From contig NZ_CP023692.1 of the NCBI RefSeq assembly GCF_008704935.1, positions 5,769,501-5,833,500 on the forward strand: a stretch of 64,000 bases of DNA, read 5' to 3'. Positions 60,755 to 63,724 of this stretch are shown piece after piece. Every line of letters begins with the position of its first letter. The stretch's first letter is position 1. Position numbers and translations under genes: made by a program. Under the pieces are notes generated by a model that was not told the DNA's origin, did not search any database, and worked only from the letters and a program-made list of their open reading frames with translations. This DNA is from Streptomyces vinaceus. GTDB lineage: Bacteria; Actinomycetota; Actinomycetes; Streptomycetales; Streptomycetaceae.

Positions 60755-60923
60755 AAGGTGTCTGTCTCGCGTCCCTCGCGGGCCGTTCCGACGTGGAAAA
60801 CATTACCAAACATTCCGGGGCCCTCGATCACACCCCCCTGCGGCCGAGGATCGCCCTTGGGCGGAGCCGGGCGAAGCGGGAGGATGGGGAGGCAGTCGGT
60901 ACCGATCAGTGGGAGGAAGCAGC

Positions 60924-62249
60924 GTGAGCGAGTCGAGCGCGGGCAGGACAGTCTCGGGCGAGGACGAGGTCGTCGACCTCTGCCGGGACCTCATCCGGAT
61001 CGACACCAGCAACTACGGGGACCACTCCGGGCCCGGGGAGCGCAAGGCGGCCGAGTGGGTCGCGGAGAAGCTCGCCGAGGTCGGACTGGAGCCGCAGATC
61101 TTCGAGTCCCACAAGGGCCGCGCCTCGACCGTCGCGCGCATCGAGGGGGAGGACCCGTCGCGGCCGGCGCTGCTGATCCACGGCCACACCGACGTGGTCC
61201 CGGCCAACGCCGCCGACTGGACGTACGACCCCTTCTCGGGCGAGATCGCCGACGGCTGCGTGTGGGGCCGCGGCGCCGTCGACATGAAGGACATGGACGC
61301 GATGACGCTGGCCGTCGTGCGCGACCGGCTGCGCAGCGGCCGCAAGCCCCCGCGGGACATCGTGCTGGCCTTCCTCGCCGACGAGGAGGCGGGCGGCGTG
61401 TACGGCGCCCGGCACCTCGTGGACAAGCACCCCGGCCTCTTCGACGGGGTCACCGAGGCGATCGGCGAGGTCGGCGGCTTCTCGTTCACCGTCAACGAGA
61501 ACCTGCGGCTGTACCTGGTGGAGACCGCCCAGAAGGGCATGCACTGGATGCGGCTCACGGTGGAGGGCACCGCGGGCCACGGCTCGATGACGAACAACGA
61601 CAACGCCATCACGGAGCTGTGCGAGGCCGTGGGCCGCCTGGGCCGCCACCAGTGGCCGGTGAGGGTCACCAAGACCGTACGGAGCTTCCTGGACGAGCTC
61701 TCGGACGCGCTGGGCACCCCGCTGGACCCGGACGACATGGACGCGACCCTGGCCAAGCTGGGCGGCATCGCCAAGATGGTCGGCGCGACGCTGCGGAACT
61801 CGGCCGCCCCGACCATGCTCGGCGCCGGCTACAAGGTCAACGTCATCCCCGGCCAGGCCACCGCGCACGTGGACGGGCGCTTCCTGCCCGGCTACGAGGA
61901 CGAGTTCTTCGCCGACCTCGACCGGATCCTCGGGCCGCGCGTGAAGTACGAGGACGTGCACGGCGACAAGGCCCTGGAGACGGACTTCGACGGGCGGCTC
62001 GTGGACGCCATGCAGGGAGCCCTGAAGGCCGAGGACCCGATCGCGCGGGCGGTCCCGTACATGCTCTCCGGAGGTACGGACGCGAAGTCCTTCGACGACC
62101 TCGGCATCCGCTGCTTCGGCTTCGCCCCGCTCCAGCTCCCGCCGGAGCTCGACTTCGCCGGGATGTTCCACGGCGTGGACGAGCGGGTGCCGGTCGACGG
62201 GCTGAAGTTCGGCGTGCGCGTCCTCGACCGATTCATCGACAACTGCTGA
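60924..62249 (+). CDS. M20 family metallopeptidase/dipeptidase
   Basis: This 441-residue zinc hydrolase has the M20 motifs LLIHGHTDVVPA (metal His), GRGAVDMKDMDAMT (bridging Asp) and FLADEEAGGVYGARHL (catalytic and metal Glu). A dimerisation domain starts near GMHWMRLTVEGTAGHGSMT, and the last metal region is LSGGTDAKSFDDLG. It cleaves dipeptides or acylated amino acids in the cytoplasm. The GTG at 60924 follows GGGAGGAAG. The chaplin genes lie downstream, separated by about 130 bp. Confidence 0.93.
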   Translation: MSESSAGRTVSGEDEVVDLCRDLIRIDTSNYGDHSGPGERKAAEWVAEKLAEVGLEPQIFESHKGRASTVARIEGEDPSRPALLIHGHTDVVPANAADWTYDPFSGEIADGCVWGRGAVDMKDMDAMTLAVVRDRLRSGRKPPRDIVLAFLADEEAGGVYGARHLVDKHPGLFDGVTEAIGEVGGFSFTVNENLRLYLVETAQKGMHWMRLTVEGTAGHGSMTNNDNAITELCEAVGRLGRHQWPVRVTKTVRSFLDELSDALGTPLDPDDMDATLAKLGGIAKMVGATLRNSAAPTMLGAGYKVNVIPGQATAHVDGRFLPGYEDEFFADLDRILGPRVKYEDVHGDKALETDFDGRLVDAMQGALKAEDPIARAVPYMLSGGTDAKSFDDLGIRCFGFAPLQLPPELDFAGMFHGVDERVPVDGLKFGVRVLDRFIDNC

Positions 62250-62379: not shown

Positions 62380-62613
62380 ATGCTTAAGAAGGTTGTCGCC
62401 GCTGCGGCTGCCACCGGTGGTCTGGTTCTCGCGGGTGCGGGCATCGCCGCCGCCGACGCGGGTGCGCAGGGTGCGGCCATCGGCTCCCCGGGCGTCCTGT
62501 CCGGCAACGTCGTCCAGGTCCCCGTCCACGTCCCCGTGAACGTCTGCGGCAACACGGTCAACGTGATCGGCCTGCTGAACCCCGCGTTCGGCAACACCTG
62601 CGTCAACGCCTGA
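62380..62613 (+). CDS. chpH: Short chaplin (ChpH-like)
   Basis: This 77-residue secreted protein has a signal peptide ending near AAADA and one mature chaplin domain of about 50 residues. The motif [37 protein letters not shown]... is represented here with key residues: two Cys about 19 apart, forming a disulphide, and a GN repeat. Short chaplins assemble into amyloid fibrils that coat aerial hyphae and spores. AGGAGGA precedes the ATG. Strong tandem hairpins follow. ChpH is suggested by neighbourhood with a long chaplin and by both cysteines. Confidence 0.93.
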
Positions 62614-62710: not shown

Positions 62711-63478
62711 ATGCGACGACAGGCAGCGGTCACCAGGAAGACGCTGATCACCATGGCGGCGGCGGGGGGTGTGCTCGCGCTGGGCGGGGGTTACGCACAC
62801 GCCGACTCCGGCACGTCCGGCCATGCCGTGAACTCTCCGGGCGTGGCGTCCGGGAACTCCGACCACGTACCCGTGGACGCTCCGGTGAACCTGTGCGGCA
62901 ACACCGTCTCGGTGGTGGGGCTGCTCAACCCGGCCTTCGGGAACCGGTGTTCCAACGACTCGGCCACGCCAAACCACCCCGGTCACCCGGGGCACCCGGG
63001 CAACCCCGGCCACCCGGCCGAGCCCGAGGAGCCGGACGAGCCGTGCGACGAGGACGAGCCGGGGCACCCCGGCAACCCGGGGACTCCCGGCCACCCGGGC
63101 AACCCCGGCACGCCCGGCAATCCGGGACACCCGGGCACTCCGGGCACGCCCGGCACCCCGGGGACTCCCGGCAATCCCGGCACCCCGGGCACGCCCGGTA
63201 ACCCCGGCACGCCCGGTCAGCCCGGCAACCCCGGCACGCCCGGCCAGCCCGGAACCCCCGGCACCCCGGGTACGCCCGGGCTCCCCGGTGGGCCCACCGG
63301 ACCGGGTACGGGCGGGGTCACTCCCGTGACCCACCCCGGCCAGGGCATCGCCCCGGCCCAGCAGGCCGGGCTCGCCGCGACCGGCGCCGGAGACGTCCTC
63401 GGCGTGGGCCTTCCGCTCGCCGCGGGCACGCTGCTGGCCGGCGCCGTGCTCTACCGCCGCGCCCGCAGCGCGGCCTGA
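62711..63478 (+). CDS. Chaplin-domain protein with collagen-like stalk and LAATG sorting signal
   Basis: This 255-residue protein has a signal peptide (to about residue 31) and one chaplin domain (about 38-81) with both cysteines (NLCGNTV and GNRCSN). A short acidic stretch with [13 protein letters not shown] interrupts the following repeat region. Then come 26 uninterrupted Gly-X-Pro/Pro-like triplets ([18 protein letters not shown]), as in collagen. The end is LAATG at 221-225, a membrane helix and RRARSAA, a class E sortase signal. Long chaplins such as ChpA-C normally have two chaplin domains and no collagen-like part. AGGGGGAC precedes the ATG at 62711. Wall anchoring with a rigid stalk is inferred. 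Confidence 0.85.
63060..63293. repeat. Tandem repeat coding the Gly-X-Pro stalk
   Basis: A 9-bp-related array, built from units such as GGCACCCCG, GGCAACCCC and GGGACTCCC, codes the collagen-like triplets. Codon third positions vary, so it is kept by protein selection as well as repeat expansion. Length variation between strains is likely. Confidence 0.85.
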
Positions 63479-63535: not shown

Positions 63536-63724
63536 TCACCAGGTGGCGCGGACCTGACGGATGATCCTCCGGCGCAGCCGTACCCGGCGACTGCCGTCCC
63601 GGTAGAGGGCCAGCCGGTCGATCTCCCAGTTCCCGTACTCGGCATGGTCGGTGAGCAGGCGGGTCGCCTCCTTCCGGGGCACACCGCGGGGCACGTACAC
63701 GTCGACAAATTCGTATTCCGGCAT
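63536..63724 (-). CDS. DUF5703 family small protein
   Basis: This 62-residue protein reads EYEFVDVYVPRGVPRKEATRLLTDHAEYGNWEIDRLALYRDGSRR and so on; only part is quoted as the pattern. The conserved VPRGVxRxEAxRLLTDHAEYG core marks DUF5703, a small actinobacterial family of unknown function. It is basic at the C-terminus (VRLRRRIIRQVRATW). The ATG at 63724 is divergent from the gene at 63772, 47 bp away. Confidence 0.8.
   Translation of the reverse strand: MPEYEFVDVYVPRGVPRKEATRLLTDHAEYGNWEIDRLALYRDGSRRVRLRRRIIRQVRATW

Follow-up and report, generated by a model that had tools for sequence, protein, structure and literature searches.

The window, a 64,000-nucleotide stretch of Streptomyces vinaceus DNA, contains a gene for a long chaplin of 255 amino acids, directly preceded by a short chaplin gene. 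These two genes, the flanking ORFs and the segments of the encoded long chaplin are as follows.

60909..62249 (+): upstream gene, presumably an M20-type peptidase; marker for trees, with a match in 79/79 related loci
62380..62613 (+): short chaplin directly 5′ of the long chaplin, in a ChpH-like position
62711..63478 (+): one-headed ChpC-type long chaplin, 255 aa (ORF, Pfam, N-terminal model A1)
62711..62803 (+): signal peptide, residues 1-31, with a probable cut between AHA and DS (read from the sequence)
62786..62956 (+): single chaplin domain of the head-1 type, residues 26-82 (Pfam; head-1 versus head-2 models)
62981..63016 (+): four Gly-X-Pro triplets, residues 91-102 (protein sequence)
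63017..63061 (+): acidic interruption with the lone Cys112 (similar form in Cys-bearing one-headed relatives)
63062..63295 (+): 26 unbroken Gly-X-Y triplets (25 GXP and one GGP), residues 118-195 (sequence, Pfam, codons)
63371..63385 (+): LAATG, a sorting signal of the class E type, residues 221-225 (sequence; available text of PMC5148588)
63398..63475 (+): hydrophobic helix and arginine-containing tail, residues 230-255 (read by eye)
63536..63724 (−): 62-residue ORF, convergent, directly 3′ of the long chaplin gene

Architecture and orthology of the long chaplin

In the 255-residue protein, Pfam recognizes a chaplin domain (PF03777; 85.7 bits, cut-off 21) and a Collagen repeat (PF01391; 50.3 bits, cut-off 27.2). 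ORF, Pfam and sequence agree on the layout that the first-pass annotation had read at this locus, namely one chaplin domain followed by 26 triplets, LAATG, a helix and arginines. By sequence a signal peptide is likewise present, in line with the export assumed there, and a cysteine does lie in the acidic interruption, albeit at residue 112 and not at about 108. Both Pfam and a model of the chaplin heads of its own genome (row L008) count a single head, and the protein thereby falls outside the two-domain definition of the long chaplins ChpA-C; the LAXTG motif, helix and positive tail that also characterize this class are all present. The 26 unbroken triplets (PF01391) correspond to the Gly-X-Y repeat by which bacterial collagen-like proteins are recognized. 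No trimerization domain was recognized in the window protein by Pfam.

Orthology was judged with model A1, which covers head 1 and the N-terminal part of ChpC (14 rows, the window sequence among them). Its best match in the window's own genome is the window protein (7.6e-41, the window sequence being one of the 14 model rows), and it has matches in 150/150 genus genomes (E≤1e-25), with only short chaplins matched in G079, as well as in all 121 genomes of a family sample spanning 17 genera (E≤1e-22). A short chaplin is encoded just upstream in 139 of the 143 complete relatives, as in the window; in Streptomyces coelicolor, too, chpH adjoins chpC. Because of the model A1 match and the upstream short chaplin, we treat the window protein as a ChpC ortholog. 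Judged from its sequence, it is a ChpC-type long chaplin in a derived, one-headed form.

The survey comprises the best-matching locus in each of 149 other genomes of the genus, a few of which may be paralogs rather than ChpC orthologs, and yielded the 143 complete long chaplins. Set aside before counting were L282, whose stretch contains no long chaplin and whose genome is 78% complete, L228, in which the repeat interrupts the reading frame and the acidic motif is unreadable, and, for lack of a readable sorting signal, L191 (masked bases), L227, L241 and L275. Stalk counts refer to the stretch between the last head and the sorting signal, leaving repeats between heads uncounted.

The Gly-X-Pro tract is real protein

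Besides 143 of the 150 genus genomes, a six-frame Collagen search matches the antisense strand of the window gene. Since such matches are common in these genomes, a Collagen match alone is weak proof of a collagen-like protein. The genus-wide search was swamped by frame noise; still, 18 of the 30 loci kept from it hold a long chaplin. Within the tract, the 26 Gly codons (16 GGC, 4 GGG, 4 GGT and 2 GGA) and the 26 Pro codons (18 CCC and 8 CCG) vary at the third position only, which argues that the tract is translated and real. Alignment with the nearest relative, Streptomyces roseus (L014), covers 72 tract codons, 29 of which differ only synonymously and 10 of which change the residue: nine of these changes are at X, one is at the first Gly and none is at Pro. 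The two tracts differ in length by whole triplets, and the upstream marker is 100% identical as protein and 98.0% identical as DNA. Similar ORFs in other assemblies (L013-L016) hold runs of 23 to 29 triplets. On the codon pattern, the L014 comparison and these ORFs we reject an artefact of reading frame or assembly; an assembly artefact was among the dangers to its claim that the earlier annotation had named.

A separate observation concerns L053 (Streptomyces virginiae NRRL ISP-5094) and L228, which reads the same: in both, the ChpC frame is broken at the junction of head and repeat, perhaps by collapse of the repeat in assembly, or perhaps by a real lesion.

Proline-periodic stalks are common in ChpC-type proteins

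Runs of at least ten unbroken Gly-X-Y triplets lie between the last head and the sorting signal in 41 of the 143 ChpC-type proteins (35/133 with two or more heads and 6/10 with one). Of the other 102, 89 have a stalk with at least 20% proline. Stalk length and residues vary greatly across the genus; the longest Gly-X-Y run ranges from 0 to 33 triplets, and N, H, T, E, Q, D and K account for most X residues. Sample stretches are EPQEPGTPEEPNKP from L134 and GNPDEPGNPDEP from L258. Outside the genus, runs of at least ten triplets occur in 8/31 loci, all eight in one genus; this sample represents 31 of 93 genomes, 11 of them chosen simply as best-scoring. A stalk of a different type is seen in L354 (G033), which combines one visible head with many TPPPYGGG repeats and LPHTG.

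The Gly-X-Y runs at the same place in relatives from the genus rule out that the stalk is unique to the window gene. The notion of a special structure of this gene, as advanced in the first-pass annotation, is not supported, given the runs of at least ten triplets in 35/133 multi-headed relatives and in 8/31 loci of other genera. Whether the architecture is already standard for ChpC-type proteins has a divided answer: the stalk is common in the genus, whereas the single head, present in 10/143, is not standard. The collagen-like stalk is a common feature of ChpC-type proteins, with no description among the papers searched, rather than a new structure of the window gene. A literature search for chaplins with a collagen-like or proline-rich stalk returned nothing relevant among the matches listed, subscription papers being mostly outside its scope. 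A Protein Data Bank search brought up collagens from animals, repeats that are either synthetic or generic, and chance matches.

Within runs of at least ten triplets, Pro is the Y residue in 751/820 and the X residue in 0/820. Across all 143 stalks, recurrence at a lag of three residues is significant (p<0.01) for Pro in 100 and for Gly in 45, and 43 stalks are without significant Pro periodicity. The 89 stalks that have no Gly run of six include 47 with Pro periodicity and 4 with Gly periodicity. The most widespread feature of the stalk is Pro at every third residue, and because this periodicity outlasts that of Gly, we prefer to see the stalk as basically a spacer of polyproline-II-like form within the wall.

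A genuine triple helix of the collagen kind, a stiff rod on which three anchored chains would display their amyloid heads as a cluster, would account for the Collagen score of 50.3 bits and the perfect Gly phase over 26 triplets, for the placement of nine out of ten residue changes at X and the length changes by whole triplets relative to L014, and for the long runs in 41 relatives. L232 and L261 even hold the Gly phase, over 31 and 27 triplets, where Pro is missing from some of them. However, the head is an amyloid-type domain, Pfam finds no trimerization domain, 102 of the 143 relatives have no run of ten triplets, and two Cys-bearing one-headed proteins, L160 and L246, break the phase, with longest runs of 4 and 7. 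Moreover, Pro at Y and never at X is the reverse of what the available text of PMC8968730 describes for collagen-like proteins of Gram-positive bacteria, in which Pro is preferred at X and Thr at Y. We consider a triple-helical rod in long tracts rather unlikely and retain the polyproline-II-like spacer as the preferred reading.

Loss of the second head and gain of a stalk cysteine

When scored against head-1 and head-2 models, the single heads of the window protein and of its ten one-headed relatives in the survey all come out as head 1 (11/11); head 2 and the linker are therefore missing. The same scores reject a hybrid head formed by crossing-over of heads 1 and 2. By eye, the VDAPVN stretch in the window head resembles head 2. 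One-headed proteins have longer stalks, with a median of 141 (n=11) compared with 87 in the two-headed class (n=131; p=4e-6).

Head number varies in other ways as well. Three chaplin domains are scored in each of the long chaplins L195, L199 and L305, and the window genome encodes a two-headed long chaplin (L007, G000:C1:5547119-5547532) whose second head is without both cysteines, as is described for ChpB in the available text of PMC13251363.

A stalk cysteine is found in 10/11 one-headed proteins, the window protein included and exactly one in each of the ten, versus 6/131 two-headed ones (Fisher 1e-10), and the mature chain has three cysteines in 10/11 one-headed proteins versus four in 125/131 two-headed ones. 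The stalk cysteine lies in a DEPCDDHP-like motif in nine of the ten one-headed relatives and in the window protein, and an acidic Cys motif of this kind is present in 10/10 readable Cys-bearing one-headed ChpC proteins. The exact CDDHP pattern is uninformative alone, with 26 sites in 10/11 genomes against 9 for a backward-pattern control. The exception in the genus survey is L276, one-headed without a stalk cysteine, a state that also holds for L084. Among one-headed loci of other genera, L319, L329 and L343 are without a stalk cysteine, L330 has one and L335 has six; two-headed proteins with a stalk cysteine also occur there (L317, L318, L322 and L325, among others). For an exported protein, an odd cysteine count is suggestive of an inter-chain link, and the earlier idea that this residue could join chains is strengthened by three mature cysteines in the one-headed class versus four in the two-headed class.

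In the upstream-gene tree (79 rows, comprising 78 named loci and the window; L045 omitted for its short marker), 23 of 24 one-headed rows, the window included, form one clade together with one unreadable row (SH-aLRT 100), and the remaining one-headed row, L084, falls elsewhere. The survey-genome tree was built from a short marker piece of 125 columns and omits 7 of the 150 loci (six with marker pieces of fewer than 80 residues, one without the marker). In this tree the ten Cys-bearing one-headed rows cluster, with 2 changes versus a shuffled mean of 9.8, but no supported node unites them. A single evolutionary event seems to underlie the one-headed, Cys-bearing state, and the statistics on heads and cysteines therefore count relatives, not independent cases. 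Head count, rather than the stalk, is the unusual part of the window protein.

A second one-headed long chaplin with a matching motif

A further one-headed long chaplin with LAATG, here called the partner, is encoded in the window genome.

About G000:C1:4332900-4334053 (−), outside the window: L347, 385 aa

It has a Pro-Ala stalk, and DEEECDDHP stands between head and stalk. The N-terminal 120 residues of the partner have matches at E<1e-50 in 11 of the 150 genomes (7/61, 4/80 and 0/9). These genomes (G000, G012, G038, G039, G042, G046, G054, G071, G074, G078 and G083) are the ten with a one-headed Cys-bearing ChpC plus G042, in which ChpC is broken in the assembly. The genome of L084 is without a partner match; G033, G086, G112 and G148 give weak matches only (1e-20 to 1e-22), that of G148 overlapping its own ChpC. 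All 11 partners have the acidic Cys motif as well as a pair of cysteines in the head, L353 having an extra cysteine in its signal peptide, and LAxTG is readable in 9/11 and unreadable in L348 and L352.

The likeness between the ChpC and partner motifs exceeds that in every one of 2000 shuffles (on average 4.8 of 9, versus 2.0), in a comparison that ignores relatedness, concerns a short and acidic motif, and took in L191, the inclusion of which lowers the observed score. If the ChpC form and the partner arose on one branch, their co-occurrence is one event and not eleven. It is conceivable, if rather doubtful, that a two-headed ChpC has split into two sortase-anchored one-headed chaplins that are joined above the wall by a disulphide between their acidic Cys motifs. 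Were this the case, each anchored unit would again have two amyloid heads, on a Gly-X-Pro and a Pro-Ala stalk.

The motif might instead be a metal or calcium site made of Cys, Asp, Asp and His that bridges chains or senses metal and forms no disulphide. CDDHP, the residues of which are classic metal ligands, is kept in ten of the eleven partners and is CDDQP in the eleventh, but the window ChpC (CDEDEP) and several relatives lack the His that directly follows the acidic pair, and we regard metal binding as improbable. Neutral low-complexity drift, with flexible Pro/Gly filler sufficing as stalk and the cysteine incidental, would agree with the range of longest Gly-X-Y runs from 0 to 33 in the genus, but has little chance of being correct given codons that change synonymously while Gly and Pro are conserved, and an acidic Cys motif in 10/10 readable Cys-bearing one-headed ChpC proteins with its matching form in 11/11 partners.

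Discussion

We propose, as a probable reading with appreciable room for error, that the window protein is a one-headed ChpC in which a wall-spanning proline spacer, capable of a triple helix yet not requiring one, carries a lone cysteine that links chains. After export, the protein would be attached at LAATG by a class E sortase, by analogy with SrtE1 and SrtE2, which, in the available text of PMC5148588, attach LAXTG-bearing ChpC to the wall. In agreement, all three sortases scanned from the window genome (3 of its 12 sortase matches) are class E above the cut-off. The single head may co-assemble with short chaplins, for instance the neighbour at 62380-62613, and so tie the amyloid coat to the wall; long chaplins have been modelled as such a tether (PMC5618241 and PMC7766987, as far as their available text goes), and conservation of ChpC, ChpE and ChpH extends across the sporulating streptomycetes that have been sequenced (PMC5618241, same text).

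The stalk would act mainly as an extended polyproline-II-like spacer across the wall, and a triple helix might form, without being required, where Gly keeps its phase over many triplets, as in the window protein. Intermolecular chaplin disulphides have been proposed as nuclei, and homodimers of ChpF and of ChpH have been reported (available text of PMC3079736). Cys112 could link two copies of the protein, or link it to the second one-headed long chaplin. Through either link, an anchored unit would regain the pair of heads normal for ChpC.

With ChpC of S. coelicolor, known here by description, the window protein has in common a chaplin head, a signal peptide, LAXTG, a short chaplin upstream and the likely status of a class E sortase substrate; it differs in having one head instead of two and a lone stalk cysteine. 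Long chaplins have two domains set 35 residues apart, according to the available text of PMC7766987. Two-headed relatives such as L051, L061, L092 and L104 share the chemistry and position of the stalk and the kind of anchor, yet the two-headed class has two heads, four mature cysteines in 125/131 and a stalk cysteine in 6/131.

Beyond the chaplins, streptococcal Scl1 and Scl2 (LPXTG) likewise consist of a head, a Gly-X-Y stalk and a wall anchor, but have a variable trimerizing domain where the window protein has a chaplin, and the window protein matches their NCBIfam models weakly (16.0 and 13.9 bits, cut-offs 400 and 325). CwpA and CwpB of Actinoplanes missouriensis are SrtE-dependent and thought to make the surface hydrophobic (available text of PMC13251363). 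Their authors state in that text that they are without a chaplin domain, and the available main text does not contain the words 'collagen', 'proline', 'linker' or 'repeat'.

In the available text of the sources, descriptions of long chaplins end at two heads and a sorting signal, and the part before the anchor is left undescribed. The survey reveals there a variable, mostly proline-periodic stalk that is formally collagen in 41/143 proteins, and its repeat, with Pro at Y and never at X, opposes the trend described for bacterial collagens in the available text of PMC8968730. What is new is the one-headed, Cys-bearing ChpC with its co-occurring partner. With its single head, odd cysteine and Cys-matched partner, this ChpC is a natural experiment on why two heads are the normal state, and the one-headed form and its partner also bear on the disulphide-linked nuclei proposed in coat assembly.
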